The translations under genes were made by a program, and so were the position numbers. From positions 1-64,000 of IMG/VR virus record IMGVR_UViG_3300027749_000112: DNA of 64,000 nucleotides; one strand, written 5' to 3'. This stretch comes from a virus. The notes under the pieces were generated by a model. That model ran no database searches. It was not told the DNA's origin and saw only the letters and a program-made list of their open reading frames with translations. Positions 26,701 to 46,304 of the stretch are shown here, one piece after another (the stretch's first letter is position 1; each line of letters opens with the position of its first letter).

Positions 26701-27353
26701 GCGCCGATGGGCATTGATTTATCTGGAGCCTTCGGCCCCAGTAACTGCTTGCTATAAGCCGTAAATTCTTCACCGGCCAACTTGGCTACGGTATCGGCAG
26801 TGCCGCCACGGCGCTGCTGGAGGATGCTATGGACGATCTCGTGCCGCCTCAGTGCCTTTCGGGCTACTGATGGGTTTGCATACGATCTGACGACTCGTCC
26901 AACAGACCCTGTAGAATCTGACAGCTTACTCGTCGGGGAGAGATTGATGATGCCGCCCCTTGCGATGTTCTTAGGCTTAACTCCGGCTGCACCTGCCGCA
27001 TCGATGTAGTAACTTCGCAGGGAGTTGCCAGACTTGGCAGAAGCCTTTTTAACATTTTTCTGAACATCGGATGGGTTTAGGTAGGACGCTAATTTATCAG
27101 CACGGGTTTCATCAAGAATCCCAGGGCGAATATACCCGTCTGGCAGCATGCCCGCAAACTCTTTCGCCGGCCGTTGGTAGATATGAACAAGCCTTGATGC
27201 TTCCTCTCTCAACTTGGGCGTCACGCTGTATGGAACATCTGGATTAAATCGAATGTCATGAATCTTGATGGCCTCATGTTCGGCAAGGCCCCTGACGCTT
27301 TTGGCATACTTAAATGCGATTTCGTGAGCCTTCTGCAGAGGAGTGATCTTCAT
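23799..27353 (-). CDS. Giant HExxH/glycine-zipper virion protein (1184 aa)
   Basis: Residues 1-254 form a separate domain with HEIVH near 170, the zinc-binding motif of metallopeptidases. At Met255 a GTTGAC-N16-ATG element occurs in frame, and about 20 residues later follows Glu-Arg-Arg-Glu-Phe-Ile-Lys and a Gly/Ala helix, like a twin-arginine signal. The remaining 900 residues have many glycine-zipper segments, a zinc ribbon (Cys-Pro-Gln-Cys near 578, Cys-Pro near 594), and LLKEFGYSDQTRNSQGRW, related to motifs in the 182- and 418-residue proteins. The start overlaps the portal stop (ATGA). Likely an ejected internal head protein with protease activity; a fusion of two genes is possible. Confidence 0.7.
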   Translation of the reverse strand: MKITPLQKAHEIAFKYAKSVRGLAEHEAIKIHDIRFNPDVPYSVTPKLREEASRLVHIYQRPAKEFAGMLPDGYIRPGILDETRADKLASYLNPSDVQKNVKKASAKSGNSLRSYYIDAAGAAGVKPKNIARGGIINLSPTSKLSDSTGSVGRVVRSYANPSVARKALRRHEIVHSILQQRRGGTADTVAKLAGEEFTAYSKQLLGPKAPDKSMPIGARIGKLISGTIESTNKGRKTLGLTKWLEGALTHPTLGMALKNFQLPHDYATQPDSSERREFIKTGILGAGIAAGAGIGALALRGVAGKAARNETARNAVNRVVTAQRNAKIAREGVVQEAQAQAAKEAKGAFKAKGKAYAKDIREIAKNPNLTKGEKEKFKSAHARWKEANAAPTEFDTVIREKRDGLSKARDGALLAGGLGVLGAAGYAGFKARGAAKAITSAVREHAPAISSKVNAALDQATLAASHLKVTGEQAAHAVAPSSDMGKLYKSAKGAVHNILDPVNTAKETHAGWKAGLAATPLSKPGDSLMTRIKNAKQSFVSGFNAPVEQLKTRPKWALSANLKAQLKEFSRSRVYYCPQCGFEKSYHRVQQQVVFCPSDNSPMIPELNEFSLQTDEDGIPLNGRVAHDRFIKQIRESDLDRRDHNMRNAGVAGAVTGALVPSKKLGIGIRAALGAAAGGASVLGVRAVTDHKRDIYGDRPRWAKTAETVPAAGGAAAAAILAAKKAKLFAAIEKADPKTNIHPALKAALLGAGSGVVLGAIPGLKIGSTLAGTAASIGKGALLGGALAGGGTAIGTQILGHPQEGEGAPIMKRAALGGAIAGGVLGTAGVLAARKAPRIAKAAGLNLGSLAKTWRPAAFVKNASLPAAALSGAGAGAIIGGTHAADEGQEVDTVNAIQEQKPKTFQSQVQGLLKEFGYSDQTRNSQGRWRNPVREKLGLDDDAGTAVPVRQSIQGFYNQGKAIHRWGGRGSGIVGDATSVIAGNPRDRDAAGRPRKREWEKAWFKNTVGAAAGAAALYGAAKVTKDTAVGRKHILPLVKKADDLGKKYGVRLFDQWAEYNGWDVRDPRGRSARVFAPGSRPRVRREKDWHEKKENRELLLKVAAGAVGAAGVGAGIVGARAHAGLPINPFKNAGKGIFDLKGKPVAAAAKGPRYQSTSYPTGHHGDAVEEIRRKGLHIVEREIA

Positions 27354-29101
27354 TTCACTTTAGGCGTCTTGGATGGCATGGTCGGTGCTGGGGCGACCGG
27401 CTGGGGAGTGGGCTCATCTGGCACCATCTTCTCAACCTCGGACTTCTTGAGGCCGTAGAGCTGGATGATGGAGGCGACCGCACTTGCTCGATCCATCTTG
27501 CCTTCACCAACTTGCTTGAGGATCTCCAGGAGGGGCTTGGCGTCCACCTGAGCTTCGACAAGACCGGCAGGGGGAGCTGGAGGTGGCTCGTTCATGGCCG
27601 CAAGGAGTTGGGAAGGGTTGTTGAGGCGGTTGGTGAGGAGTTCGATCGGAACGCCTGTCTCAGATGCCACCTGCTGCATGTAGGTGATCTCGCTGGCAGA
27701 TTTGCGGACGACTTTCTCAAACGTGCTGCCTCTCTCTGCGATGATGTCGCTGGCATTGATGATGCCGGCCGACAGCTCCTGCATTTTGGCGGCCATGTCG
27801 TTGCCATAGTCGCCAGTGAGGGTGGCACCAAAGGCCCAGCGGCCTTTCTTCCAAAGGGGGTGAGATGGCAGGATGCCGGCAGCGATAGCGCTTCCCAGTA
27901 CCGTATTGCGGACAGGGTTGAGCCATGTGCGAGAGATGAGGTTTTGGTTGCGGACGATGCCGCGCATGGCTTGCGCTACCTCGATGCGGCTGCCATGGCC
28001 TCCTAGTTCGGAGATGTCGTGCAGGAAGCCGTAGGGATACCCGTTCTGTGTACCAGCGCAGATTTCCCTGATCATCGTCTGCACGAGCGAGAGGAAGGCT
28101 CCATTTGGCCGGTTGGTTCCAGGTGCAAACTGTACCTCGTCGCCTTGGTTGAGCCGCAAGACTTTGGCGATCTCCATGCTGATCGTGCCAGGGCCAGCAT
28201 TTGGCGTGTTGCCAGGAGAGCCAGGGGTTGCCCCACCCGTCACGCCATTCCAGGCGTTGGGATCCGACATGTTATAGGGATCAGCCTGACGCACAAAGCC
28301 AGCATGCCCCACTTGCCATTTAGCAGCTTGCTTCTCGGCCTCGTAGATTTCGTAGAGGTCGCGCGCTGGCGCAATGGCAGTCGCAAGTGCTGTCACGCCG
28401 CGATACTGATCTACTCGCTGGGGATCCATCAGGTGCAGGAACTGAGCCGCCGGCACGTCGCGATCAAATGTGTACTGAGATGTAAGCCTGTTCCTGTTGT
28501 AGATCGAATACTCCGTAGGCGCTCCATTGTCGTCGATCGTGATCCCTCCGATCTTGTTCTTCTCCGTCGTCTCGGCAGGGTTGAGTACGTTACCAATGCG
28601 ATCAGCCTCGATCGGCTGGATGCGGACAGATCGAGCGTCGCTCGGATCGACGTTCAGCATGTTCCAGCCGTGGTCGCCATCCACAAGCTGTGACCAGAAC
28701 CCCATCCAGCAGAGTTCGGAGAGGGAATGCCGGCCGGTTATGTCGGCGGCCTCGGCCCATTCCGCCATGTAGTCCTGATAGATGCCATCGATCGTATCGT
28801 CGCCGGTCGAGGAGACATACTGAACTTGATCGACGGTATACTGGACGATCTTGGAGACGATCCCCTTTAGGAGGCCGAAGTTGCGGACGACATCACGGGC
28901 ATCCCACATGAGCAAGACGCGATCCCGATTGGAGCGCCGGTTCTCGGGAGAGCCATTCTTAGAGGCGCCCCCTGAGTAGCCACGCTTGACGCCAGGGGTA
29001 GCGGCATCATAGCCAAACATCTTCAGGCGTTGGCGAGCCATGACCCTACCAACAGCGGCTTCGGGGTTAAAAACTGCGACGGCGCGATCGAGAAAATTCA
29101 T
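27350..29101 (-). CDS. Portal protein, lambda gpB family (583 aa)
   Basis: Length and sequence fit lambda-type portals: a basic N-terminus with a Tyr-Ser-Gly-Gly-Ala segment, a Val-Asp-Gly-Asp-His-Gly-Trp-Asn core, and Gln-Phe-Leu-His-Leu followed by Gln-Tyr-Arg-Gly-Val-Thr, a conserved portal block. The last 60 residues are Pro-rich. The portal forms the dodecameric DNA channel. The preceding gpW-like gene and an overlap of ATGA with the next gene fit the lambda order. Confidence 0.88.
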   Translation of the reverse strand: MNFLDRAVAVFNPEAAVGRVMARQRLKMFGYDAATPGVKRGYSGGASKNGSPENRRSNRDRVLLMWDARDVVRNFGLLKGIVSKIVQYTVDQVQYVSSTGDDTIDGIYQDYMAEWAEAADITGRHSLSELCWMGFWSQLVDGDHGWNMLNVDPSDARSVRIQPIEADRIGNVLNPAETTEKNKIGGITIDDNGAPTEYSIYNRNRLTSQYTFDRDVPAAQFLHLMDPQRVDQYRGVTALATAIAPARDLYEIYEAEKQAAKWQVGHAGFVRQADPYNMSDPNAWNGVTGGATPGSPGNTPNAGPGTISMEIAKVLRLNQGDEVQFAPGTNRPNGAFLSLVQTMIREICAGTQNGYPYGFLHDISELGGHGSRIEVAQAMRGIVRNQNLISRTWLNPVRNTVLGSAIAAGILPSHPLWKKGRWAFGATLTGDYGNDMAAKMQELSAGIINASDIIAERGSTFEKVVRKSASEITYMQQVASETGVPIELLTNRLNNPSQLLAAMNEPPPAPPAGLVEAQVDAKPLLEILKQVGEGKMDRASAVASIIQLYGLKKSEVEKMVPDEPTPQPVAPAPTMPSKTPKVK

Positions 29102-29346
29102 CAGTTGATTCCGTTGGAAAAGTCAGGGACGGCGTAGTTAGGGGATCCTCTGAAGCGCCACTCATTCCGCACCCTGGTAGCGGCATGGAGGCGGTTCGTG
29201 ACCAGCATCAGATCCTTGGTGTGGGACTTCTCACCGACCGACTGAGAAGTATAAAGGGTTGCCTGTTGCTTCAGCAGAGTGATCTCTGCCTGCAACTCCT
29301 CACCGGAATACTGCCGGTAAATTTCCATCCATTCGGTCGATGCCAT
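29101..29346 (-). CDS. Head-tail joining protein, gpW-like (81 aa)
   Basis: ATG 29346 starts Met-Ala-Ser-Thr-Glu-Trp; the frame stays open upstream but without a better start. It is a helical 81-residue protein with Leu-Leu-Lys-Gln-Gln-Ala and a Phe-Arg-Gly-Ser end, placed just before the portal, like lambda W. GTTGAC is exactly 16 nt before the ATG. As first gene of the late operon it should lie near the late promoter. Confidence 0.65.
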   Translation of the reverse strand: MASTEWMEIYRQYSGEELQAEITLLKQQATLYTSQSVGEKSHTKDLMLVTNRLHAATRVRNEWRFRGSPNYAVPDFSNGIN

Positions 29347-29389
29347 ACTTGCAACACCGGCAGTCAACGGACGGACGAGAAAACCGGAC

Positions 29390-29407
29390 GGATCGGCCGG
29401 CCGATCC
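29390..29407. promoter_or_regulatory. 18-bp perfect palindrome in divergent region
   Basis: GGATCGGCC is followed directly by its reverse complement GGCCGATCC. It lies 44 bp upstream of the first late gene, a likely place for an operator of a dimeric regulator. Two-fold symmetry is seen; the binding protein is unknown. Confidence 0.55.
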
Positions 29408-29489
29408 CGGCTCCTGGGGGAGATTCTTCCTGGGAACACCGAAAATGTTAGGCCGGCCCTGGCACCACCTTTTTACTGCGGATGAGGTG

Positions 29490-29519
29490 ATATACATACT
29501 TAGGAATAAGTATGTATAT
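29490..29519. promoter_or_regulatory. Inverted repeat, 13-bp perfect arms
   Basis: ATATACATACTTA, a GGAA loop, and TAAGTATGTATAT are perfectly complementary. It is AT-rich, lies between the divergent late and plus-strand units, and has no T-run after it. An operator or origin element fits better than a terminator. Confidence 0.6.
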
Positions 29520-29525
29520 GGGAGA

Positions 29526-29735
29526 TTGAAGAAGTGAATTGATTTTCCCTTATTAGTAGATGAAAGGGATTGAAAATAATTAAAAGGAAAGGTTGAAGAA
29601 GTGAATTGATTTTCCCTTATAGATGAAGGAAAGAAGATTGATAATTTCTTCAGAAAAAATCTGAAGAAGTGAATTGATTTTCCCTTATAGATGAAGAGAA
29701 AAAGGATTGATAAATGATCTTTTTTCCCTTATTTT
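29526..29735. repeat. Three iteron-like repeats, 67-68 bp apart
   Basis: TGAAGAAGTGAATTGATTTT followed by CCCTTAT begins at about 29527, 29594 and 29662. Each copy is followed by a degenerate AGATGAAG and GATTGA block. A partial fourth copy (TTTTTTCCCTTAT) lies near 29720. The stretch is AT-rich and ends just before the gene at 29744. Iterons of this kind are typical of replication origins or repressor-binding clusters. It is the only stretch of over 300 bp without a gene. Confidence 0.75.
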
Positions 29736-29743
29736 AAAACCCT

Positions 29744-30628
29744 ATGAAAACACAAATTCAGTTCACAAATTCAACCTATAACAAGGAAAGCATGGATAAG
29801 GCTTTCAAGTACTTAAATGCTCCGGATGAGAAATCCGGAATCCTAGTAAATGCAATAATTGCAAGGTTGGAAAATCCCGATTCTCTCCTCACTGGCAATC
29901 TGATAAAGGGAGAGAATCAATCAGAAAATCAGCGGATTTCTGATAAGATAAAACGGGTCAGAGAATCCAAAAAAGGATTGATCTTTAGAGAAAAGCACAA
30001 AGGGAATTTCACAAAAGGTCAAAGCAAGAATGCGAGAATGAAGAGAATGCTTTCACTTGAAGACAAGCAAGATGTTGCGCAAACGATTTTTGCCATGCTT
30101 GCAAGTGGGATTGACCCGCAAAAATACTACACTCAGAAAATCCAAGAAACCGGAGAAGAGAAAGAGGTGCTTGGACTGTATTTACTTTTTCGGGCTTGCA
30201 GAAAAGCAATCCGTATCAACGGAGGCAATCACGATATAAGTAAAGCGGAAAGCATTGATAATATGACAGAATTTGACTTGGATAATATGATTGATGTCAA
30301 TGCGCATCCTGAAGAGCAAATCATGGGAAGGCTCGATTTGAGCGATCAACTCGAGGCAATGCGCAAATTGTGCAAAGTAGCCTTTGAAAATGATCAATCT
30401 CGCCAAAAGGCGCAAAAGTACAAGAGCGCATTAGCAAAAATCGAAGCAATCGAAGCAGGTTTTAACCTGCTTTCAGAAAAAGTGATAGTTGCGAAAAATG
30501 CTACTGCAAGAATCAACGAAAACACAAGGTTTCTGGAATATCTGAAAGCAGGAGCGCAAAAAATCAATGCTGAAGAACTGGAAGACGCTTCCCACTCTAT
30601 GAAAATGGCGATGACGAAATTATTCTAA
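29744..30628 (+). CDS. Hypothetical protein next to iterons (294 aa)
   Basis: This charged, mostly helical protein is rich in Lys, Asn and Gln and more AT-rich than its neighbours. A basic segment near residues 65-105 could bind nucleic acid. There is no membrane segment. It stands alone between the iteron cluster and a strong terminator, which would suit an initiator or regulator that binds the repeats. That is inference; I do not recognise the family. Confidence 0.7.
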   Translation: MKTQIQFTNSTYNKESMDKAFKYLNAPDEKSGILVNAIIARLENPDSLLTGNLIKGENQSENQRISDKIKRVRESKKGLIFREKHKGNFTKGQSKNARMKRMLSLEDKQDVAQTIFAMLASGIDPQKYYTQKIQETGEEKEVLGLYLLFRACRKAIRINGGNHDISKAESIDNMTEFDLDNMIDVNAHPEEQIMGRLDLSDQLEAMRKLCKVAFENDQSRQKAQKYKSALAKIEAIEAGFNLLSEKVIVAKNATARINENTRFLEYLKAGAQKINAEELEDASHSMKMAMTKLF

Positions 30629-30651
30629 AAAATCATAGGGAAAGCAAAACG

Positions 30652-30683
30652 GCCCTAGGCGGGAAACTGCCTAGGGCTTTTTT
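30652..30683 (+). terminator. Rho-independent terminator
   Basis: GCCCTAGGC, an 8-nt loop, GCCTAGGGC, then TTTTTT. It lies 23 bp after the stop of the 294-residue gene and isolates that gene as a single transcription unit. Confidence 0.92.
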
Positions 30684-30723
30684 GTGCCCTGAAAGCACCA
30701 TCTAAGAAAAAAAACATCCAATT

Positions 30724-31149
30724 ATGAAAATTCAATCCATCCGAAAAATTCACAATCCATCGGTTGCTCTGATGGATAACGCAAGGGAAGCCGCCCCTGC
30801 ATGGAGCGCAAAAGACGACAAGCGTGCCGCCCTTGAAAAGCGTGCCGCTTTACTTGTCCCTAAAATCCCACCAGCGGGACAAGGGAAAATCGTCGGCCTT
30901 CCCTACCGGCCGCATGGCCCTGGCCCCTTTGCAATCATTGCCAGCAAGACTCATGTAGTCACGCCTGGCCGGTATGTAAATTCCACCGGCTCGCATAGCA
31001 AGCGCGGATACCATACTCCCTCCCGTCTCTATACGGCCGGAGTTCCTTTGTGCCATCGCAAAGATGAAGGCGTCTTTGTGACGCTCGAAAAATCAGTCGC
31101 TCCTATTGATTGGAGCGGAAAAAGACTGGAGCCATTTATTGCAGGGTAA
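30724..31149 (+). CDS. Hypothetical basic protein (141 aa)
   Basis: This basic, Pro/His-rich protein has a central Pro-His-Gly-Pro-Gly-Pro-Phe segment and no membrane segment. It is a single-gene unit, with a terminator 40 bp upstream and another 14 bp downstream. No Shine-Dalgarno is seen; the leader is CATCCAATTATG. Family not recognised. Confidence 0.65.
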   Translation: MKIQSIRKIHNPSVALMDNAREAAPAWSAKDDKRAALEKRAALLVPKIPPAGQGKIVGLPYRPHGPGPFAIIASKTHVVTPGRYVNSTGSHSKRGYHTPSRLYTAGVPLCHRKDEGVFVTLEKSVAPIDWSGKRLEPFIAG

Positions 31150-31162
31150 AATCCTCAAAAGA

Positions 31163-31188
31163 GGGCGATTAAATTCGCCCTTTTTTTT
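31163..31188 (+). terminator. Rho-independent terminator
   Basis: GGGCGA, loop TTAAAT, TCGCCC, then eight T. An A-run upstream allows extra pairing. It ends the 30724 transcript and insulates the long plus-strand operon that follows. Confidence 0.9.
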
Positions 31189-31231
31189 GAGACCTCTATC
31201 CGTCCAAACACTTTTGGTGTCCCTAACAATT

Positions 31232-31426
31232 ATGCAAATCAAAATCAGCAAACAAGTTAGCCAAACTCTTTATTACGAACTGGAAAGCGGCAAGGGGGGG
31301 TCACTGACATCTTCCAGCCTGACCAATGAGGCCATCACTTCCTATCTGGAAGAGAAAGTGGACGAGGACGGATCGCCCGTCAAAAGCGCTGTCCTGCACA
31401 CCTTAACAGAGGAAACCATAATCTAA
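31232..31426 (+). CDS. Hypothetical small protein (64 aa)
   Basis: The frame runs upstream through the terminator, so ATG 31232 (Met-Gln-Ile-Lys-Ile-Ser) is the realistic start. Leader CCTAACAATTATG lacks a Shine-Dalgarno. The protein is short and mixed alpha/beta with an acidic helix near the C-terminus. It is the first gene of the small-gene operon. Family unknown. Confidence 0.6.
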   Translation: MQIKISKQVSQTLYYELESGKGGSLTSSSLTNEAITSYLEEKVDEDGSPVKSAVLHTLTEETII

Positions 31427-31427
31427 T

Positions 31428-31604
31428 ATGGACACTTACAAAATCATTCGCTTTTACGAAAAAGACTATCCATCGGAAACGATGGCCGAAGGGCTAACCC
31501 TAAAAGAAGCCAAGGCCCATTGCCAAGATCCTGAAACCAGTAGCCGAACAGCAACATGTGTCGGCCACAAGGGGGCATGGTTCGACGGGTTCGAAAAGGA
31601 GTAA
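31428..31604 (+). CDS. Small conserved phage protein (58 aa)
   Basis: The sequence starts Met-Asp-Thr-Tyr-Lys-Ile-Ile-Arg-Phe-Tyr and has LTLKEAKAHCQDPETSSRTA, with Trp-Phe-Asp-Gly near the end. This pattern, EEA..HC.DPETSS followed by WFDG, is a widely found short phage family of unknown function. It begins one base after the preceding stop. Confidence 0.75.
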   Translation: MDTYKIIRFYEKDYPSETMAEGLTLKEAKAHCQDPETSSRTATCVGHKGAWFDGFEKE

Positions 31605-31608
31605 ATCT

Positions 31609-32025
31609 ATGAAACGCAACTACGAAATCGACGACACGCTAAAAGAGCGTGCTGATGGAGCTATCGACGAGGTGAAGGATGAACTCCTTCGCTATCTGAA
31701 AGAGAATCCCGATACGGATTCCCTCCCCTGCCTCAACAATGACCTCGACTACTCGGGGGCAATTCACGAGATCGTGGACACTTCCGTACCGGTCTACAAC
31801 AGCGAGATCGCCGACACCTGGTATCTGCACTCCAACGACCTGGAGGAGGCCTATGAGAACGCCGGCGTCGGGGACAATCCGAGGGAGAACGACGGGATGG
31901 CCGCCATCTACTTCTACATCATGGACAAGGTTCAGGAGTGGTACAACGACCACGCCGAAGATGTCTTTGAGGAGTGGCTCGAAGCCAACCCTATTAAGGA
32001 AGACGAGGAGGAGGTTGAGGCATGA
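31609..32025 (+). CDS. Hypothetical acidic protein (138 aa)
   Basis: ATG 31609 follows the previous stop by 4 bp, behind AAGGAGTAA, one of few good Shine-Dalgarno sites in this operon. The protein is strongly acidic with a Glu-rich end and helical C-terminal half (Gln-Glu-Trp-Tyr-Asn-Asp-His). It overlaps the next start by 4 bp. It may be a DNA mimic or a host-factor inhibitor, but only charge suggests this. Confidence 0.7.
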   Translation: MKRNYEIDDTLKERADGAIDEVKDELLRYLKENPDTDSLPCLNNDLDYSGAIHEIVDTSVPVYNSEIADTWYLHSNDLEEAYENAGVGDNPRENDGMAAIYFYIMDKVQEWYNDHAEDVFEEWLEANPIKEDEEEVEA

Positions 32026-32258
32026 AGACTTACGACGCTGAAATTGATGGCAAAAAAATAGCCTTTTGCGAAGAAACGGACTTCCTAGTTCAGGTGGGGC
32101 GATGGAAAGGGAGCTATCAAACTCGATACTCATTTAAGGGGAACCTTGCACAAGCCGTCCTATACTATCGTGGAATTAACATAGGCAACGGATACAAAAA
32201 AAGGCTTCTAATGCCCTCCTGCTCAAAGCGTCCCGTCTTGGCGCGATCATTTTCATGA
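32022..32258 (+). CDS. Hypothetical protein (78 aa)
   Basis: It starts Met-Lys-Thr-Tyr-Asp-Ala-Glu-Ile-Asp-Gly-Lys-Lys, has a central pattern Ala-Gln-Ala-Val-Leu-Tyr-Tyr-Arg-Gly-Ile-Asn-Ile-Gly and a basic end. It is coupled to both neighbours by ATGA overlaps. The short fold with Gly-Asn-Gly is seen in several small phage proteins. No function can be given. Confidence 0.65.
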   Translation: MKTYDAEIDGKKIAFCEETDFLVQVGRWKGSYQTRYSFKGNLAQAVLYYRGINIGNGYKKRLLMPSCSKRPVLARSFS

Positions 32259-32353
32259 CACCTGATCATTATCGGCTAATTCGGCTCACCTGCATCCTGG
32301 GCTTTATGCTGACGGCGCTGGCCGTCCGAATTTCTTATCTAATTACTAACTAA
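32255..32353 (+). CDS. Tiny single-span membrane protein (32 aa)
   Basis: ATG 32255 overlaps the previous stop (ATGA) and the stop precedes the next ATG by one base, so the frame fits the operon exactly. The hydrophobic stretch from Leu12 to Ile28, preceded by Arg residues, is one membrane segment. Tiny phage membrane proteins often affect superinfection or the host envelope; here this is only a possibility. Confidence 0.55.
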   Translation: MTPDHYRLIRLTCILGFMLTALAVRISYLITN

Positions 32354-32354
32354 T

Positions 32355-32603
32355 ATGAGCATAGAAATCGCAAAGTGGAAAACAAAAGGCAAGGACTTTT
32401 TGGATCTATTTAACACCTATCTGGAACATCCAGAAAAAGGACAGATTTACCAATATGTCGGCAACGGGTGCGGAGGATGCTTTTTTGCATCTACTGACCA
32501 AGAAGCCATTGAGCACATGGAGCGGTCATGGGGATACCCAGGCGGCGCAGGGCAAGCAACCGCCCTGCGATCCGACCGCCCATCACTAAAAAGAATTAAA
32601 TGA
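32355..32603 (+). CDS. Hypothetical protein (82 aa)
   Basis: It has a Tyr-Val-Gly-Asn-Gly-Cys-Gly-Gly-Cys-Phe-Phe-Ala core (residues 33-44), possibly metal-binding, then a helix and a basic end. It overlaps the next start by 4 bp. Family unknown. Confidence 0.6.
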   Translation: MSIEIAKWKTKGKDFLDLFNTYLEHPEKGQIYQYVGNGCGGCFFASTDQEAIEHMERSWGYPGGAGQATALRSDRPSLKRIK

Positions 32604-33091
32604 AATACCAAGTCATCGTTGGGAATATCGGGACAGTCTTTGATGGCGACGACCTGAAAAATGCTAAAAGCACATTCAAGGTGTATGTCGAGCAATCGAA
32701 GTCGGAGTTCGGAAGGGCTTCTGGCGAGGATGTTTGCATGATGTCCGATGGCGAAATCGTCAAAGAGCATCAAGCGCGGCCAACTCCCCCCGTCTTACCA
32801 ACAATCAAAGATTTATCAGCCCTCATAGTAGAGCTGAAAAAACAAATAGGCGACGAGTATCGCGCCTATGACGACTGCGATGAGGATGATGTCACCCCAT
32901 CCATGCTCCTGACTATTGGAGCCGACGGCAAGGGGCGCGACTCCTGGGGCTGGCAAACGGGAGACAATTCCTACACCGGCGGGGCTTATGGATACGCCAA
33001 CTGGGCGGTTACAGCCCTCGATCGTCGCTGCAACTCAAAGGAAGTGGCGCGAGGCCTGATCGAGCAACTTGAAAACCTAATTTACGAATGA
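32600..33091 (+). CDS. Hypothetical protein (163 aa)
   Basis: The N-terminal 60 residues look like a small alpha/beta domain (Met-Lys-Tyr-Gln-Val-Ile-Val-Gly-Asn). A Pro-rich linker follows, then a second domain with Asp-Asp-Cys-Asp-Glu-Asp-Asp and Gly-Trp-Gln-Thr-Gly-Asp-Asn-Ser-Tyr-Thr-Gly-Gly. Similar Trp-Gly-x-Gln-Thr-Gly-Asp strings occur in other small phage proteins. It overlaps both neighbours by 4 bp. No function known to me. Confidence 0.65.
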   Translation: MKYQVIVGNIGTVFDGDDLKNAKSTFKVYVEQSKSEFGRASGEDVCMMSDGEIVKEHQARPTPPVLPTIKDLSALIVELKKQIGDEYRAYDDCDEDDVTPSMLLTIGADGKGRDSWGWQTGDNSYTGGAYGYANWAVTALDRRCNSKEVARGLIEQLENLIYE

Positions 33092-33300
33092 AAGACCTGA
33101 CAAACTCAATCACTTATGCGGTTCGTTTCCTAAATAATATGTACGGCAAGGGGACGGTCACTGAAGTAGGCCTATTCTTCAACGGAGGCGGATTCTTTGT
33201 TCGGGAAAGCTATGGCTGCAAGCCTGAGAGGCGGTTGTTCCGACTCTCTAAAAACGGAAAGAGCGTCATTGCCCTTGATCATCAAAAACACCTTATATGA
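33088..33300 (+). CDS. Hypothetical protein (70 aa)
   Basis: A short protein with a helix (Tyr-Ala-Val-Arg-Phe-Leu-Asn-Asn-Met-Tyr) followed by strands with Gly-Gly-Gly-Phe-Phe-Val-Arg. ATGA overlaps at both ends show it is part of a tightly coupled run. Family unknown. Confidence 0.6.
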   Translation: MKDLTNSITYAVRFLNNMYGKGTVTEVGLFFNGGGFFVRESYGCKPERRLFRLSKNGKSVIALDHQKHLI

Positions 33301-33896
33301 AAAATACTGACCCTACAAAAGTATCGGCATCGCTGCCGATGTTCCCTGGATTTTACAACTCCATCCTCGATCACGCTATTGATTCCGAGATCGCGTCCGA
33401 GCAATGCGAAACTGGCGAGGAATATGACGCCATCATGGAGCGCTACGATATGGGCGATGCCATGAAAGCCATCTCGAAAGACTGGTCATGGGCCTACGCT
33501 CGCCGCACCGGCATCTCGATGGAGTTCGAGGAAGTCACAAGCCCAAAGGAATACAACTTCACGACCGACCGATGCTTTGTCCTGATTCCAGTCGATGAGA
33601 TCGAGCGCGTCGCCAAGGAGGTGGATGAGACCGTACTGAGAAAGGTGCTGAAGGACATGTTCACCTCTTACGATGGATTCATGTCGTTCTACTCAAATTC
33701 CTTGGAACATGAGGAGTGGCAAGCGCCCGTGAGTGAGTGGGATCACAACCAACTCCAAGCCCTGCTCTTAGCCCATCTATTGACGACCGATCCTGACATC
33801 ACGAGGGACGAACTAGAGATGGAAATGTACGAGGCTTCTTACGAGGGCGCCTATGCGGGATGGATCAAAGACCGCCCAGAAGTTTTAGCCGCCTAA
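33297..33896 (+). CDS. Conserved phage protein of unknown function (199 aa)
   Basis: It has the start pattern LPMFPGFYNSIL, the block Ser-Pro-Lys-Glu-Tyr-Asn-Phe-Thr-Thr-Asp-Arg (near residue 80) and an acidic C-terminus. These two blocks recur in unannotated phage and plasmid proteins that I recognise by pattern but cannot assign. No catalytic motif is seen. The gene overlaps its predecessor by 4 bp. Confidence 0.7.
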   Translation: MKNTDPTKVSASLPMFPGFYNSILDHAIDSEIASEQCETGEEYDAIMERYDMGDAMKAISKDWSWAYARRTGISMEFEEVTSPKEYNFTTDRCFVLIPVDEIERVAKEVDETVLRKVLKDMFTSYDGFMSFYSNSLEHEEWQAPVSEWDHNQLQALLLAHLLTTDPDITRDELEMEMYEASYEGAYAGWIKDRPEVLAA

Positions 33897-33916
33897 CACC
33901 CAACCCAATACCAACA

Positions 33917-34282
33917 ATGCAAACTGAAGCAACTAACGCGATCGTCACGGCGATCATCAATGCCCTAGCAGATGCGGTTTATATCCGTGTGGATGAGAAA
34001 CTGAAGCAAGCGGAGTCTGTCATGCCCGATCACTTGGACATGGAGAAGCTCATCCGCCGATTCGAGGATCTTGAGAGCAACCTCTCCGATGTTAAAGAGA
34101 AGGCCCAGGACGCTTACGATAAAGCCGATGAGTTGGACGGAAAGCTCGATGATGTCGATCTGTATGATCTGTCACGCATTGATGTTAGCGAGCTTGTGAC
34201 CGAGGAGGACATTCCCTCACTCGTCCGCGAGGCCCTCTGTTCCATCCTACCCACCTTAGTGATCCAAGAGAAGAAGCACTAA
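33917..34282 (+). CDS. Acidic coiled-coil protein (121 aa)
   Basis: ATG 33917, behind the leader CCAACAATG, avoids overlap with the preceding gene; an earlier in-frame start at 33860 would not. The protein is acidic, with a coiled coil at about 35-85 (Asp-Leu-Glu-Ser-Asn-Leu-Ser-Asp-Val-Lys). It may dimerise. Function unknown. Confidence 0.65.
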   Translation: MQTEATNAIVTAIINALADAVYIRVDEKLKQAESVMPDHLDMEKLIRRFEDLESNLSDVKEKAQDAYDKADELDGKLDDVDLYDLSRIDVSELVTEEDIPSLVREALCSILPTLVIQEKKH

Positions 34283-34294
34283 CCGATTCATTTT

Positions 34295-34555
34295 ATGACT
34301 ACTACTGCACTTAATGAGGAGGATCAGGAGACTGATCGGCCAACCAACACCTCGTTTGTGAATGACTTCATGAACTGGGGATCACCAATGAACCAAGTCT
34401 GGCTCATGGAGGCCTGCCATCGCTATGCCGCACAGCTCGTCGATAACAAAGAGCAAGTTCTGAAAGACATGGAAGGCGCATTCATCAGCGGCCCAGCTTG
34501 GGTGGCGTGCGCCGAGAAGTGGCAGAAAGATCACAAGGAGACATTTGAATCATGA
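34295..34555 (+). CDS. Hypothetical protein (86 aa)
   Basis: A helical protein with an Asn-Trp-Gly-Ser-Pro-Met-Asn-Gln core and Gly-Pro-Ala-Trp-Val. It starts 12 bp after the preceding gene behind an AT-rich leader and overlaps the next by 4 bp. No family recognised. Confidence 0.6.
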   Translation: MTTTALNEEDQETDRPTNTSFVNDFMNWGSPMNQVWLMEACHRYAAQLVDNKEQVLKDMEGAFISGPAWVACAEKWQKDHKETFES

Positions 34556-35118
34556 GCATCATTGTAGAAACCGAAGTCTTTGATCTCGCGGAGCTAAAAG
34601 AGAAGCATCCTGAAGGATACGAGAGGGCTTTCGAGGATTATCAAAAAAAGACATGGGAATGGGAGACTCCATGTATTGAAGAAACCTTCAAGAGTATTGA
34701 GTCCGTTATCGAGGCGTCTGGATTTTCCATGAGAAATTGGAGTCTTGGTAACAGCAGTAATCGAAGCCAAGACATATCGCTCCGAGAAAATTATTATCTC
34801 GACGATCTGGCCGGCCATAAGGCGCTGGCACACTTTCTAAAGGTGCTCATCAAGCATGGGTACGAACGCCCTAAGCACTTCAAAGAAATGCAGTTCCCAG
34901 GCGTCTGCGGATTTACCGGCTACTGCTTTGACGATGATTGTGCCGAGGCCGTCTGGAAGGATCTCTTGTCGGGATCTTCCCTGAGAGAAGCCCTTTCGGG
35001 TCTCGATTTTGTATATGCCAAGCAGATGGATGCTGAAGAGGAATATCAGCGCAGTGAGGAGTCCTTCGAGTGCTGGGCTGACGGAATGACCTTCACTGCC
35101 GAGGGAGAAGAATTTTAA
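34552..35118 (+). CDS. Hypothetical protein (188 aa)
   Basis: It is a soluble acidic protein. Its middle third has aromatic and Cys residues (Val-Cys-Gly-Phe-Thr-Gly-Tyr-Cys-Phe-Asp-Asp-Asp-Cys). The first 40 residues are helical and charged. The Gly-Phe-Thr-Gly-Tyr-Cys-Phe-Asp-Asp pattern occurs in small phage early proteins of unknown function. Coupled to the upstream gene by 4 bp overlap. Confidence 0.65.
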   Translation: MSIIVETEVFDLAELKEKHPEGYERAFEDYQKKTWEWETPCIEETFKSIESVIEASGFSMRNWSLGNSSNRSQDISLRENYYLDDLAGHKALAHFLKVLIKHGYERPKHFKEMQFPGVCGFTGYCFDDDCAEAVWKDLLSGSSLREALSGLDFVYAKQMDAEEEYQRSEESFECWADGMTFTAEGEEF

Positions 35119-35128
35119 CCAACCAATT

Positions 35129-35233
35129 ATGAGCGACCCACTATCAGAAGATCCAGAGGACGGCCCTGAGCCGCAAGATAATCAAGTGTGGATCTCCGCT
35201 TGCGACCTAAACGCCAATTACTCGAACGAATAA
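35129..35233 (+). CDS. Tiny acidic protein (34 aa)
   Basis: The ATG follows the leader AACCAACCAATTATG, almost identical to that of the next gene, and the stop lies 10 bp before the next ATG. It is rich in Asp, Glu and Pro. The position in the operon and the repeated leader argue that it is real. Confidence 0.5.
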   Translation: MSDPLSEDPEDGPEPQDNQVWISACDLNANYSNE

Positions 35234-35243
35234 CCAACCAATT

Positions 35244-35612
35244 ATGACAACACTGACCGACAACGAAACACTCGACCGACATATCAACCAGGCCGGCATC
35301 ACGACCGGCCCCGCCAAGCTGGATCTCATCCGCAAGGCTTGCGAGCTGCGAGGCCTTCCGCTCTTCAAGGACGATGGGAGTAGCAGCCCTGTTGCCAAGG
35401 TGAAGCTCTTCGATCCCACGGGATCGTGGACATGGTATCTCTCCGAGTGGGATGGAAAGAACGAAGCCTTCGGCCTTGTCGACGGATTCGAGAAGGAACT
35501 CGGATACATCGACCTTCAGGAACTCTCCGAGCTCAGGGGAAAGCTAGGTATCGGCATTGAAGTCGATGTCTGGTGGACGCCCGAGGCATTGGAGGAACTA
35601 CAGAAATCATGA
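35244..35612 (+). CDS. DUF2958 family protein (122 aa)
   Basis: The pattern Lys-Leu-Phe-Asp-Pro-Thr-Gly-Ser-Trp-Thr-Trp-Tyr, followed by Phe-Gly-Leu-Val-Asp-Gly, then Glu-Leu-Gly-Tyr-Ile and Trp-Trp-Thr-Pro, is that of DUF2958. This family is common on plasmids and phages, often next to antirestriction genes. Its biochemical role is unknown. Leader AACCAACCAATTATG, no Shine-Dalgarno. Confidence 0.85.
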   Translation: MTTLTDNETLDRHINQAGITTGPAKLDLIRKACELRGLPLFKDDGSSSPVAKVKLFDPTGSWTWYLSEWDGKNEAFGLVDGFEKELGYIDLQELSELRGKLGIGIEVDVWWTPEALEELQKS

Positions 35613-36010
35613 GCAATCCATTCACTCTCTGGCAAGAAACCGACGATCATATCGATTATGAGGCCGCCCTGGAGTTGCCGGCCCTGCCTAATGGTCAGGA
35701 GTGTTCGGTAGTTGTTCGCCTCACGCTAAATAAATCCAGTAACGAGGCCTACACGAGCGTCACTTACGAAACCGAGGGTGCGCACATGAGAATCAGCGAT
35801 GACTCATTTCCTGAAGATACCTTCCGAAGCATCGTCGGCATGGAACCGACACGAGAGCGAAAACTGGAAATCCAAAAAGCTGAGTTGCTAGAAGCACTGC
35901 AGGACTGCTTGGCCCTAATAGTAAACGGCCCCGAGGGATCTCAAGATTATCAAGAACGAGTCGAATCACAGGCTCGTGCCGCAATTGCCAAGGCAACAAC
36001 CAACTCCTAA
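35609..36010 (+). CDS. Hypothetical protein with AIAKAT tail (133 aa)
   Basis: ATG 35609 overlaps the preceding stop (ATGA). The N-terminal part is beta-rich. The C-terminal 45 residues (Leu-Leu-Glu-Ala-Leu-Gln then Ala-Ala-Ile-Ala-Lys-Ala-Thr) resemble the end of the HTPGPW proteins at 36016 and 39996. This suggests a shared helical module moved between genes. Function unknown. Confidence 0.65.
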   Translation: MSNPFTLWQETDDHIDYEAALELPALPNGQECSVVVRLTLNKSSNEAYTSVTYETEGAHMRISDDSFPEDTFRSIVGMEPTRERKLEIQKAELLEALQDCLALIVNGPEGSQDYQERVESQARAAIAKATTNS

Positions 36011-36015
36011 CACCT

Positions 36016-36330
36016 ATGCCCACACAACACACACCTGGCCCTTGGAAAGTGGCCGAGGCATTCATCAACAATCAACCCAACCGCCTCTTTGTTAGCGAGG
36101 GGAAGTGGGGCGGCAAGAACATTGCGGATTTAGGAGAGGCAGACGAAGCGAACAATGCAAACGCACGACTCATCGCCGCCGCACCCGAACTGCTGGCCGC
36201 TTTGCAGTCCCTCATCCAGTACCTCCCCGAAGAGGACATTTACTATGAGGATGCGTCTTCGTATCGGCAGATTCAACGAGCCGTCGAAAGAGCCGAGGCC
36301 GCAATCGCCAGGGCAACCCAGCAACCCTGA
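36016..36330 (+). CDS. HTPGPW/NARLIAAAPELL family protein (104 aa)
   Basis: Starts with His-Thr-Pro-Gly-Pro-Trp, has ANARLIAAAPELLAAL near residue 48 and ends Ala-Ile-Ala-Arg-Ala-Thr-Gln-Gln-Pro. This is a very widespread phage family with no established function. A paralogue lies at 39996-40310. The leader is CCTAACACCTATG. Confidence 0.85.
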   Translation: MPTQHTPGPWKVAEAFINNQPNRLFVSEGKWGGKNIADLGEADEANNANARLIAAAPELLAALQSLIQYLPEEDIYYEDASSYRQIQRAVERAEAAIARATQQP

Positions 36331-36338
36331 ACACCTAT

Positions 36339-36692
36339 ATGAACGAAAAGACTTACACCCAAGAAGAAGCCGAGGAGATGGACGAGCTTATCCATATACT
36401 CAGGCCAGCTCACATGAGGGCTATAGAGTGGATGGATCAGAATCAGGCTCGCACCTACCGCCTCATCCATTGCGTTGAGACAATGATGGAAGCTGGAGAA
36501 GACAACGCTCTTTGGGCTTATCACAGAGACCAGACCCGCAAAGCCATCGCGGAGATGCTGAAGGACGACATGAACGATGCCGAAGGACGGCGTGTGATCG
36601 CCAAGGCAACTCAACAACCCGACGAAAAGTTAATCGACTCGGGTTTCTGCCCTGCTGATCCGTACAAGGTCAAAGCAACCCAACAACCCTGA
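36339..36692 (+). CDS. Hypothetical protein with doubled KATQQP (117 aa)
   Basis: An acidic helical body (Glu-Glu-Met-Asp-Glu-Leu-Ile) is followed by Val-Ile-Ala-Lys-Ala-Thr-Gln-Gln-Pro and, 24 residues later, a second Lys-Ala-Thr-Gln-Gln-Pro at the very end. The same peptide ends the preceding gene. The DNA GCAACCCAACAACCCTGAAC is thus repeated at gene ends here. Function unknown. Confidence 0.65.
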   Translation: MNEKTYTQEEAEEMDELIHILRPAHMRAIEWMDQNQARTYRLIHCVETMMEAGEDNALWAYHRDQTRKAIAEMLKDDMNDAEGRRVIAKATQQPDEKLIDSGFCPADPYKVKATQQP

Positions 36693-36696
36693 ACCT

Positions 36697-36918
36697 ATGA
36701 GCAAACGCAAACCACTAACAGCAGATAGACTTATTAAGAATCTGCAGAATATCTGCGATGCACAAAATGTAGATCCTAAGAAGGTAATTATTATGTATCG
36801 CCGCACTATGGATAGCGATCCCATGCCCGTGACATTCGCTGGCGAGGATCTCTTCGACTCAGAGACCAACAGCGTCCTGGAGAGCATCATCCTCTGCAAT
36901 GACCCAAGGGAACCCTGA
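36697..36918 (+). CDS. Hypothetical protein (73 aa)
   Basis: A small alpha/beta protein with a basic start (Ser-Lys-Arg-Lys-Pro-Leu), Lys-Lys-Val-Ile-Ile-Met-Tyr-Arg-Arg and an acidic end. It lies 4 bp after the previous gene behind CCCTGAACCTATG. Family unknown. Confidence 0.6.
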   Translation: MSKRKPLTADRLIKNLQNICDAQNVDPKKVIIMYRRTMDSDPMPVTFAGEDLFDSETNSVLESIILCNDPREP

Positions 36919-36922
36919 ACCC

Positions 36923-37081
36923 ATGAACCCAACCGAACTTAATACCCTCCTGCGACCTTACATCCAGCGCCAACAAGCGCGGAAGGATCGGGAGCGTGAA
37001 TTCTTAATCGCCTCCGCCCTTGTCCTGGCCCTTCTGACCGCAGCCTTCTCCCTTACCTTCGCCTTCGCACTCAACCATTAA
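36923..37081 (+). CDS. Small membrane protein (52 aa)
   Basis: ATG 36923 (Met-Asn-Pro-Thr-Glu-Leu) is preferred to an overlapping upstream ATG. A basic helix (Arg-Gln-Gln-Ala-Arg-Lys-Asp-Arg-Glu-Arg-Glu) precedes one long hydrophobic segment to the C-terminus, giving an N-in single-span topology. It may anchor a partner; function unknown. Confidence 0.6.
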   Translation: MNPTELNTLLRPYIQRQQARKDREREFLIASALVLALLTAAFSLTFAFALNH

Positions 37082-37087
37082 GATGTC

Positions 37088-37282
37088 ATGAAACGATCCA
37101 ACCGAAGGTTAATTAACCGGCTGAATAAAGCCGCTCGTTACCGAAGGTGGGACGAACTGGCAACCGCAAACAAAACCCGTTGCAGGGTGTGGATTGCAAA
37201 ACTCAATAACCACTGGGTTATTGGAAGCAAGGCACGGGAAGATGAATCGCAAACCACAAATCAATTAAAATTGAAACTATGA
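37088..37282 (+). CDS. Small basic protein (64 aa)
   Basis: It is strongly basic, with Arg/Lys-rich helix RRLINRLNKAARYRR near the N-terminus, suited to nucleic-acid binding. It overlaps the next start by 4 bp. Family unknown. Confidence 0.6.
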   Translation: MKRSNRRLINRLNKAARYRRWDELATANKTRCRVWIAKLNNHWVIGSKAREDESQTTNQLKLKL

Positions 37283-37749
37283 AGACCTATACATCCAAAG
37301 CAGGGGGCAAGCTCCTGTACTCCCATCCATCCGACGAGCGCCGTGATGCCTGCGGGCGCGTTCATCTTTTTAGCGGATACGCCGAAGTGTATCTGACCCA
37401 GGATGAGCTGGAGGCATTTGAAGAGCAGTCCGGCATCCAGATTGATTCTGACCAACTGCCATCCAGCCGCATCCAGCAAATCGTTCAATACTTGCACGAG
37501 AACGATCTACTGGAGGGGGATCCTATAGCCTACCCTTCAGATCACCCCGAATACATCGGGGACATTATTACTGACGCCTTGTTGCGCTCCGCTATGAAGC
37601 ACGGCCTCGGCACGACCTACGAGATGTTGCGCTCTGCTGTGCGCGCCTTTGCGGCTGAATACGACAAGACCAAAGAGGAGATCGACGCCCTTCCTGAGCC
37701 AAACCAAGAGATTCTCAACGCAATCATCACAACACTTTGCCGCGAATAA
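37279..37749 (+). CDS. Hypothetical protein (156 aa)
   Basis: The first half contains a Leu-Thr-Gln-Asp-Glu-Leu-Glu-Ala-Phe helix. The second half (Asp-Ala-Leu-Leu-Arg-Ser-Ala onward) is helical and acidic. There is no membrane segment. Coupled to the upstream gene by 4 bp. Function unknown. Confidence 0.65.
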   Translation: MKTYTSKAGGKLLYSHPSDERRDACGRVHLFSGYAEVYLTQDELEAFEEQSGIQIDSDQLPSSRIQQIVQYLHENDLLEGDPIAYPSDHPEYIGDIITDALLRSAMKHGLGTTYEMLRSAVRAFAAEYDKTKEEIDALPEPNQEILNAIITTLCRE

Positions 37750-37767
37750 CCCAACCAACCCGACGCA

Positions 37768-38031: not shown

Positions 38032-38034
38032 ATC

Positions 38035-39034: not shown

Positions 39035-39058
39035 ACTAACTACCAACAGGTCAACTTT

Positions 39059-40310: not shown

Positions 40311-40332
40311 GACAAAAACCAAGAAATAATTT

Positions 40333-40734: not shown

Positions 40735-40747
40735 TCCCAACAACACT

Positions 40748-42805: not shown

Positions 42806-44662
42806 TCACTCCACCAATTCCTCGACCTTGAAAGCTGCTGGCACGTTCGCCAGATCCGCATCGTCCTGTATCACTCCCCCACTCTGGCCCATGACCAACT
42901 GCATGCTCTCGCAATCGAATAAGTGGTTATCCCTCCTCACGCGCTTCCAGTAATACGTCATCCTCCCCGTGATCCGATTCACCTTCACCTCCCTCCGCTC
43001 TGAGTTGAGCTGATGGATGTAATCCTTGGAGATTGTATTCGGGACATGCCACCTAGCGGGATCCGCATACCGCATGACCTCCAAGCGATCCTTGATCCGA
43101 TCGTTGCTCCAGAAAATGAACATCGCCTTGTTGTTCTGCTCGCTCTGCAGCACCGTGCCCAAGTGAGGGTCGCGGTATTGAACCGGCGAGTATTCCTTGA
43201 GTACCCGCTGCCCCCTACCCTGACTATGAGTAAAACCACCCTTGTCGCTTCCCCATAATCCACGCCACCCATTCTTTACCAGGAGGGCGCTGACCATATT
43301 CGGTCTGTGAGCCATATCTAGCCCCACCCTCCTAGCCTCCACGCCAAAGTCGATCTGGAGCTTTTCCAGTTCTTCCGGTGTCTCCACCCTGCCCTCATAC
43401 AGCAACCAACTTTGCTGGCCTCCCTCAAACTTAGGATTGCTCCAGCTCCGAATCACAACCCAGAAGTGATTCTCCTGAACATCCACCGTCATGATGTTGA
43501 TCTTGTCGCTAGGCAACTGAGCCGTCACATACCCCGTTGTGCTGATTGGCTCGTTGTCGATGCTCTGCTCGTCATCATACGGCTCTGCTAGCGTCGAGTT
43601 GATGAATGCCTGTCTTCGAGTCATGCTCGTCTTTGACTGGATCCATTTCACGGCCAAGATCCCCCATTGGCATTCCTTCAGCGGAGCATACAGCGAGTTC
43701 AGGTGATAGCTGCGCCGGCCAAGCAAAGCGTTAGGATTCGTGGGGATCCATTCTCCCTGCTGCAGCATGTCCAGCTTCTGGTGATCCAAAATCTTTCCAT
43801 CACACTCCTGGCACCGGTAGTAGGTATTCCTCCTGACCTTTTCCTCGTCCCAGTCGCCATTCGTTTTGCTCTCGCTGGCGTCCTCATTCCACCACCTGAC
43901 CTGACCCCACTTTAGTGCAATCATCTTTTTGCAGTGAGGGCAGGGCAAATGAAAATACCTTTGATCTCCCCTCTCAAACTCTTGCCAGATTTCTCCAAAC
44001 TTTGTCGTCGGAGTCGAAGTTTTGACCCGCAGCGGGTAAGGAAAAGTTTTTGTTCGCTCCTCGGCATTCTGTAGGGCGCCGGCTTCCCTAGTGCTTTTCT
44101 GCCCCAGCTTATCCGTCTCATCAACCAGGAGGAGTCCGCATGGACGTGACGCCAAATTTGCAGGACTGTTACTGCCGGCGAAGGTCAAAATTGCCCGATC
44201 AAAGTATTGCTCTAAAATCTTGAAGTACATCCGATCTGTACTCTTTTGTTTTTTCAGCGGGGCAATCGAGTCTATGAATGGGATCCACCGGCTCTTGGAA
44301 AAGCTCTCAGCAAGGTCAGTGTTGGGCATCACCCACAACGCATTCATTGGGTCGTTGCAAAGTTTCCAAGCCGCCCCTCCCATGACCGTCAGCGTTTTCC
44401 CCACCTGCGTTCCAAAACACAGAACTAAATCCGTCACCTGCTTGTCCTGAAAACAGTTAAGTGGCTCCCTTACATAGGGGCGCGAAGATGTGTTGAATTG
44501 CCCTGGAGAACTACTCTCCCTCTCCGACAAGTACGCATTTTCCTCCAGCCACTCCCAGACACTGAGCGGCGGGGGTGACGAGAGAGTCTCAAACATCGCA
44601 CTCTCAACGCGATGGATGGAATCTGGATCGTCTATCGGTAACTCTTGGAGGGGATGGCTCAA
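42806..44662 (-). CDS. Terminase large subunit, GpA family (618 aa)
   Basis: An ATPase domain with Gly-Thr-Gln-Val-Gly-Lys-Thr near residue 84 (Walker A) and Leu-Leu-Leu-Val-Asp-Glu near 177 (Walker B), a zinc ribbon (Cys-Pro-His-Cys near 243, Cys-Gln-Glu-Cys near 285), and a C-terminal nuclease beginning near Thr-Val-Asp-Val-Gln-Glu. This layout is that of lambda gpA terminases, which cut and pump DNA. The start is a TTG coupled to the previous stop (TTGA); an ATG at 44596 is the alternative. It lies far from the portal. Confidence 0.92.
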   Translation of the reverse strand: MSHPLQELPIDDPDSIHRVESAMFETLSSPPPLSVWEWLEENAYLSERESSSPGQFNTSSRPYVREPLNCFQDKQVTDLVLCFGTQVGKTLTVMGGAAWKLCNDPMNALWVMPNTDLAESFSKSRWIPFIDSIAPLKKQKSTDRMYFKILEQYFDRAILTFAGSNSPANLASRPCGLLLVDETDKLGQKSTREAGALQNAEERTKTFPYPLRVKTSTPTTKFGEIWQEFERGDQRYFHLPCPHCKKMIALKWGQVRWWNEDASESKTNGDWDEEKVRRNTYYRCQECDGKILDHQKLDMLQQGEWIPTNPNALLGRRSYHLNSLYAPLKECQWGILAVKWIQSKTSMTRRQAFINSTLAEPYDDEQSIDNEPISTTGYVTAQLPSDKINIMTVDVQENHFWVVIRSWSNPKFEGGQQSWLLYEGRVETPEELEKLQIDFGVEARRVGLDMAHRPNMVSALLVKNGWRGLWGSDKGGFTHSQGRGQRVLKEYSPVQYRDPHLGTVLQSEQNNKAMFIFWSNDRIKDRLEVMRYADPARWHVPNTISKDYIHQLNSERREVKVNRITGRMTYYWKRVRRDNHLFDCESMQLVMGQSGGVIQDDADLANVPAAFKVEELVE

Positions 44663-45611: not shown

Positions 45612-46304
45612 TTAAGCGGTAGCATATCCCTTCTGGCCCTCAGCAATCGCCAGCTCGATCTCTTTCCGAATCGCGGCCTCGGCCAGGATGTCATTTTGCG
45701 GGTTTGCCAAAATTGCTGCATTTCTGGGGCAAGCCCGTAATCTGGACAAAAACGGCCCCCATACACGATTTATGATGCCACGGGCCGCATCATGAGTAAT
45801 GAGCGTTCCTTTCTCCTTTTGGATCTGCATGACCCTCTTCTCGGTATCCATCCGGTTCGACTGAGCTTTGTTATATGCGTTGATTGCGGTCAGGAGTTTC
45901 CCTGGCATTCCGCTCAACCGCTCTACTTCTTCGGCGCAATGCCTCTCAATCCGAATCGCTTGCTTTAGGCTCCCCTCAATCGTCGAGACATCGATCCGGC
46001 TACTCCTTTCCTTTTGCATCCTCTTCTGCTGCTCTTCATAGTTCGCAAGTGACTTCTCCTCATACTCTTGCTTTATACTCTTTACGTCAGGCGCAGCGTC
46101 TTTCGTGCGGTATCCGACGCCCCTTGGAGAGTTTGCATCTCTCCACTCGGTAGCTTTTAATATCAAATCCTCTATGCTTTGGCCCTCACTTAGCGTTACT
46201 GGGCATCCCTTTTTCCTGCATGCGTAGACATAAGTTCGGCTCGTGCCCCAGGCGGCAGCGATTGAGGGAACCGGACTTAGTGTGGTTTCTGCTAATGTGC
46301 TCAT
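45612..46304 (-). CDS. Probable terminase small subunit (230 aa)
   Basis: The N-terminal 40 residues, with SIAAAWGTSRTYVYACRKKG and a Pro-Val turn, look like the winged helix-turn-helix of lambda Nu1 that binds cos. The rest is a charged helical region of the kind that oligomerises, ending in a short helical tail. It lies upstream of the large subunit with three small genes between. The assignment is by position and domain pattern. Confidence 0.65.
   Translation of the reverse strand: MSTLAETTLSPVPSIAAAWGTSRTYVYACRKKGCPVTLSEGQSIEDLILKATEWRDANSPRGVGYRTKDAAPDVKSIKQEYEEKSLANYEEQQKRMQKERSSRIDVSTIEGSLKQAIRIERHCAEEVERLSGMPGKLLTAINAYNKAQSNRMDTEKRVMQIQKEKGTLITHDAARGIINRVWGPFLSRLRACPRNAAILANPQNDILAEAAIRKEIELAIAEGQKGYATA

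Follow-up and report, generated by a model that had tools for sequence, protein, structure and literature searches.

The iteron plasmids P1 and F carry repeats upstream of rep and in some cases downstream of it too, and rep is autoregulated. In PLE, a phage satellite of Vibrio, three semi-palindromic iterons of ~30 bp and the DNA-binding domain of RepA co-vary and are exchanged as a module, and iterons and RepA work only as cognate pairs (PMC8263062). A similar example is the O protein of lambdoid phages with its iterons (PMC7466680). Here we describe a locus of a group of tailed phages that, on the sequence evidence, is best read as a module of this iteron type, consisting of repeats and a protein predicted to bind them. 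Its most probable function, to which we give slightly less than an even chance, is that of a phage replication origin with its initiator.

The window, i.e., the whole stretch of DNA analysed (64,000 bases), corresponds to bases 1–64,000 of a 65,199-base virus record, and comes from an uncultivated tailed phage with a lambda-type portal and a GpA-type terminase. Among known phages, the best-listed matches to its portal and terminase have only about 22–30% identity, which places it in a group that has no close cultured members among the collections searched. Relatives were collected from IMG/VR through portal and terminase searches; they are metagenomic contigs, representing few genomes, some of them mutually close (G011, G018, and G019 are one phage type). 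G002 and G006 are probably complete circles, since they carry end repeats of 127 and 123 bp, respectively. The record of the window phage has a 72-bp tandem repeat of one coding region in or near both of its ends (window 1–327; record 64174–64527), so that it was probably interrupted within a repetitive gene and lacks little of the genome. It also encodes a tyrosine integrase (window 59554–60597, minus strand; phrog_1, E 2e-16), not detected in the relatives read, and as an integrase carrier this phage may be temperate. A D5-type primase and a Pif1 helicase are found in the window phage (49469–53735) and in G006, and a DnaG-like primase in G002 and others, with G002 (29026–40433) also having a topoisomerase-like protein; replication modules are exchanged within the group. 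Two overlapping genes (window 57200–58538, minus strand) are present in six of seven relatives, with 40–67% identity and no Pfam match, and in one of them an HTH-like motif was recognised by eye, making it a possible further initiator or regulator. Scans of genome contigs with the 294-aa protein and the inverted repeat described below gave no host. The early genes (window 29744–42561, plus strand) are mostly devoid of an evident Shine-Dalgarno sequence before the start codon, and this scarcity may help to place the host.

The features of the control region are collected in Table 1. Everything that the initial annotation had named here was recovered, namely an 18-bp palindrome, an inverted repeat with 13-bp arms, three 27-bp repeats, and a 294-aa orphan gene. 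The divergent layout was confirmed as well, and in the relatives the genes on the circular map diverge chiefly from this point, with the exception of isolated ORFs that a simple ORF caller put on the other strand. The three exact copies of the 27-mer are spaced by 67 and 68 bases, and an 18-base repeat core, allowing up to three mismatches, gave three matches, against 0.04 expected in shuffles. The 294-aa ORF has 39.7% GC, compared with 52.7% for the rest, and no match to its product was found in Pfam, PHROGs, NCBIfam, PADLOC, or phage or plasmid records, nor any significant match among PDB sequences, in agreement with its earlier description as an AT-rich gene of no known family. The 18-bp palindrome had also been made a component of the model, from which we drop it: as it occurs in the window phage only and is absent from every relative, it is probably outside the conserved machinery, to which the 13-bp-arm repeat and the array belong.

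Table 1. Features of the control region and its surroundings, in positions of the window.
Feature	Position	Strand	Remarks
Portal protein gene	27350..29101	-	Leftward structural module; Phage_portal_2 E 8.9e-45; phrog_21 E 7e-42
82-aa conserved gene	29101..29346	-	Between control region and portal; leftward unit; ATG at 29346
18-bp perfect palindrome GGATCGGCCGGCCGATCC	29390..29407	.	Sole perfect 18-bp palindrome in the 65-kb record
Inverted repeat	29490..29519 (arms 29490-29502/29507-29519)	.	13-bp arms, 4-bp gap; conserved in the group
Direct-repeat array	29527..29715	+	Period 68, 2.8 copies (TRF)
Repeat copy 1, 27-bp core	29527..29553	+	Exact TGAAGAAGTGAATTGATTTTCCCTTAT
Repeat copy 2	29594..29620	+	Exact TGAAGAAGTGAATTGATTTTCCCTTAT
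Repeat copy 3	29662..29688	+	Exact TGAAGAAGTGAATTGATTTTCCCTTAT
Promoter-like TTGATA-17-TATTTT	29707..29735	+	Just 3' of the array; not above chance in scan
Partial fourth copy TTTTCCCTTATT	29722..29733	+	
Slot gene, 294 aa	29744..30628	+	Orphan family; proposed array binder
Intrinsic terminator	30651..30678	+	3' of slot gene; single-gene unit
Next gene, 141 aa	30724..31149	+	Counterpart inside exchanged cassette in relatives
Terminase large subunit (TerL)	42806..44662	-	GpA type; context
Likely terminase small subunit	45612..46304	-	Directly upstream of TerL; HTH-like N-terminus by eye; context

The promoter-like element that follows the array would give a nearly leaderless transcript of the slot gene. 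Its spacing is similar, by eye, in G002, G006, and G029, and all promoter assignments made here are matches to a consensus that were not above chance in a scan. On the leftward side, the 82-aa gene, which is also listed as a 112-aa GTG ORF extending to 29439, has 52–81% identity in the relatives. A GTTGAC motif is present ~18–20 bases before its ATG in the window (about 29364–29370) and in G002, G003, G006, G015, and G029, a position too near the start for a normal −35 box. GGACGG hexamers close to the inverted repeat are not enriched genome-wide.

In the relatives, the place of the 294-aa gene, here called the slot, is likewise situated between the portal operon and early genes of the opposite strand. 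Moving away from the portal operon, the order is the 82-aa gene, the inverted repeat, the direct-repeat array, and then an opposite-strand gene, which usually starts at CCTATG and is followed, wherever looked at, by a hairpin with a T-run. The slot is occupied in every genome where it was read. When aligned with the relatives, the inverted repeat has 12-bp arms around a 6-bp centre, and it takes the form TTTAGTT-ATACAT-AACTATGTTTA or ATATACTT-ATGTAT-AAGTATGTATAT. Two degenerate forms of it, searched against 2.9 million viral contigs, gave 5 and 5 matches, all from this group, and those read in sequence were all at the slot locus. The search of bacterial genomes returned three matches, in Clostridium records, which look like chance.

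The arrays have two to six copies per relative, identical or nearly so within a phage, and their sequence differs between phages. Period and copy number are 68 bp × 2.8 in the window, 56 × 3 in G003, 56 × 2.9 in G006, 89 × 2.1 in G015, 48 × at least 3.9 in G019/G011, 67 × at least 3.9 in G009, 36 × at least 3.4 in G005, 77 × 3.1 in G017, 42 × 6.2 in G021, 37 × 2.6 in G023, and 42 × at least 4 in G022; the contigs of G005, G009, G011, and G022 end inside the array, and their true copy numbers may be higher. A 24-bp core on the same strand, ACGnnnnAnnCCCTTAnnAATnGA, is common to all ten main-group arrays, with a score of 219.5 compared with 156.4 ± 4.5 for simple shuffles, over a small number of genomes, and with its weakest fit in G009. 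When the arrays of G017 and of the G021 type were included, a shared 24-bp pattern again scored above shuffles, on mixed strands and weakly for those members, and we place no reliance on it. The repeat cores are partly palindromic. Across 14 genomes, and allowing up to six mismatches, the core is confined to the array, the sole exception being an additional copy located at the extreme 3' end of the slot gene of G006, and the reversed-sequence control gave none.

In G021, G022, and G023 the array is located beyond the terminator of the slot gene, i.e., downstream of the gene. The slot genes of these three phages are about 89–93% identical in DNA, and their array units agree mainly in GAAGGAAA and TATCAAA, pointing to these as the constrained part of the repeat. 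In all eight genomes analysed for AT-rich DNA, the slot holds a 50-bp segment among the 0.22% most AT-rich. In most main-group phages, the k-mers of the gene are nearer to its own array than to the remaining genome, a resemblance that may reflect only the deviating base composition of the cassette.

Homologues of the 294-aa protein were found in the same place in seven other phages, with 21–42% identity to the window copy. The slot protein diverges faster than its neighbours (55–73% identity for the portal and 63–76% for TerL), and the repeats and the slot gene evolve fast together. Two other families occupy the slot elsewhere, one encoding 307 aa in G017 and one 347 aa in G021 and G023, while the slot gene of G022 was read from a 318-aa downstream part. 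By profile comparison, the G017 and G021 slot proteins have no similarity to the 294-aa family, though they may be its remote homologues. No fewer than three gene families that share no detectable similarity occur in the slot.

The strongest evidence that the array and the slot gene form a cognate pair comes from the comparison of G017 with G019, where a single, well-resolved exchange is apparent. Identity between the two genomes is 98.0% as far as G017:17895/G019:17277, some ten bases beyond the inverted repeat, and is back at 98.3% from G017:19900/G019:19070 onwards, with no similarity detected by blastn over the 2,004 and 1,792 bp between the junctions. The replaced segment, of ~2 kb, comprises the array, the slot gene, and the next gene, and the inverted repeat stays outside it. 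Because the next gene travels with the other two elements, the functional unit may include it as well. Given sites that lie only beside their own gene, the co-divergence of sites and gene, and their joint exchange, we infer that the slot protein is most simply a site-specific DNA-binding protein for the array.

The initial annotation had offered two functions for this region, a replication origin with the 294-aa product as initiator or a regulator-binding array. The part shared by both proposals, an array with an adjacent cognate protein, is upheld by the co-divergence, by the placement of the repeats in 14 genomes, and by the cassette exchange. Between origin and regulator, the usual markers did not decide: no DnaA box is present in eight slots, GC skew was uninformative, coding-strand GC skew included, and neither an initiator family nor an initiator fold was recognised, with nothing matching in Pfam, PHROGs, NCBIfam, PDB sequences, plasmids, or phages and with weak structural matches only.

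We put the origin and initiator first because the locus combines the iteron-origin signature of PLE and of lambdoid O with AT-rich slots. As in iteron replicons, multiple direct repeats adjoin the gene, an AT-rich segment is present, and protein and repeats co-vary. In addition, an array downstream of the terminator, as in G021, G022, and G023, fits iterons better than it does a promoter or a leader. In the proposed arrangement, the conserved inverted repeat would be followed by iterons acting as binding sites for the protein of the adjacent gene, and then by this gene with its own promoter and terminator. Assembled on the repeats next to the AT-rich stretch, the slot protein would open this DNA and recruit whatever replisome the phage carries, and it would also control its own expression. 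Points against an origin are the lack of a known initiator family and of a DnaA box, the uninformative skew, and replisome genes that are far from the slot and change independently of it, and an array directly adjoining the putative promoter of the slot gene would suit an autoregulator equally well.

The chief rival, which ranks close behind the origin and which we regard as a real possibility though a less probable one, is a local transcription switch. Here the slot protein would be a DNA-binding regulator (a repressor, an activator, or an atypical sigma-like factor) that acts only at the array and controls its own gene together with the divergent early and late units, like a lambdoid heteroimmunity region. 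Such a switch would be well placed at the main divergence point of the genome, with the array just upstream of the promoter-like element of the slot gene, and immunity regions are also exchanged as repressor-plus-operator cassettes. However, no repeat copies are found at other operons, and one branch has its array on the far side of the gene's terminator.

The possible sigma-like character of the slot protein comes from AlphaFold models, which are helical apart from short strands and have a mean pLDDT of 47.6 for the window protein (3 sequences) and 65.2 for the L007 protein (8 sequences). In VIA-align comparisons with the PDB, the few rows for the N-terminal half include bacterial sigma factors in both models, with Z of 4–5, a range that the tool rates as uninformative. 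These rows comprise sigma-28 (1rp3, Z 5.0), SigI6 (8i24, Z 4.3), and AlgU (6in7, Z 4.2), from a low-confidence model, and further sigma factors (8dy9, 8x6g, 8gzg, 7xya, and 6omf) with the other model, also of low confidence. A sigma-like motif recognised by eye, DKQDAAQxVF..FRAxRxLLR, agrees with these N-terminal rows. Against this, Foldseek with the same models gave nothing below E 0.6, Pfam Sigma70_r2 (PF04542) had no match in seven genomes, with control genomes positive, and AlgU scored no better than shuffles against the slot-family profile. Given the negative Sigma70_r2 and local-profile searches and fold matches too weak to rely on, we do not assign the slot protein to the sigma factors, though it may have a sigma-like fold. 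Genome-wide sigma promoters fit less well, the repeat core being confined to the slot with none at other operons.

The remaining explanations are all much less probable than an origin or a switch. A centromere-like or DNA-organising array with its binding protein, serving neither as origin nor in promoter control, is improbable: local repeats, a cognate protein, and a flexible array position would also fit a partition or segregation site, but no partner ATPase was noticed in the annotated segments, which are a partial annotation. More improbable still is a packaging site, with the inverted repeat as cosN, the array as cosB, and the slot gene as terminase small subunit. In its conserved symmetric site and in its variable repeats and neighbouring gene, the locus does resemble lambda-type cosN/cosB/Nu1, and the phage has a GpA-type TerL. 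However, the obvious small subunit is the gene immediately upstream of TerL, whose start is HTH-like and which is conserved with 44–60% identity in seven of seven full relatives, whereas the slot gene forms a unit by itself, some 12 kb away from TerL and on the other strand; with a better candidate preceding TerL, the assignment of the slot gene to a cos system was rejected.

A module of the type III toxin–antitoxin kind, in which the array would be transcribed and its RNA repeats would bind the slot protein, is very unlikely. The tandem repeats do adjoin a cognate gene, and several units fold better than shuffles, but the opposite strand folds about as strongly, as expected of DNA dyads, and there is no folding in G002 and G009. 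Type III antitoxins consist of multiple RNA repeats (PMC8860590). Moreover, the terminator in the window is 3' of the gene and not between array and gene, the slot protein is predicted to be helical, and the slot is filled in every genome read, unlike an accessory trait; the terminator position and the strand-symmetric folding led us to discard this module. Finally, a recombination site for the integrase was dismissed, because the window phage alone carries this enzyme, and so was the inverted repeat as a tyrosine-recombinase core site, as the window integrase has no tblastn match in the other genomes.

Taken more broadly, we tentatively suggest, with confidence well short of even, that a single slot hosts at least three undescribed families of DNA-binding initiators or switch proteins, each with its private iterons, swapped beside a fixed inverted repeat, which may be a shared docking or opening element. 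If so, the slot would be a specificity locus that diversifies in phage genomes like an incompatibility or immunity system, and it would provide a natural series of matched pairs of DNA sites and proteins, from undescribed protein families at one genomic position, which could be used to study the joint change of initiators or regulators with their sites. It also suggests a pressure on the group, exerted by competitors, satellites, or defence, for its central control region to change in specificity, and it supplies a testable candidate origin in phages that have no cultured members among the collections searched.

Compared with known systems, the locus shares with lambdoid immunity regions the exchange of a regulator and its operators as a cassette at a divergent control region, but the repeats here are direct arrays confined to one place and the slot proteins match no repressor family. 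As in the iteron plasmids P1 and F, the repeats precede the gene and in some cases follow it, and the gene is predicted to be autoregulated, whereas the slot has no Rep family match and no DnaA box. What it has in common with lambdoid O and its origin is a phage-encoded protein accompanied by a few direct repeats and by nearby AT-rich DNA (PMC7466680); in contrast, the iterons here lie outside the gene, the slot protein has no similarity to O, and no adjacent helicase loader was recognised. Relative to PLE RepA and its origin, the slot protein has no detected RepA_N domain, the whole protein varies and not the DNA-binding domain alone, several families without detectable similarity fill the slot, and the conserved inverted repeat remains outside the exchanged segment. 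Nevertheless, the two systems are alike in their three semi-palindromic iterons of ~30 bp, in their cognate specificity, here predicted, and in the exchange of the module between otherwise similar elements.
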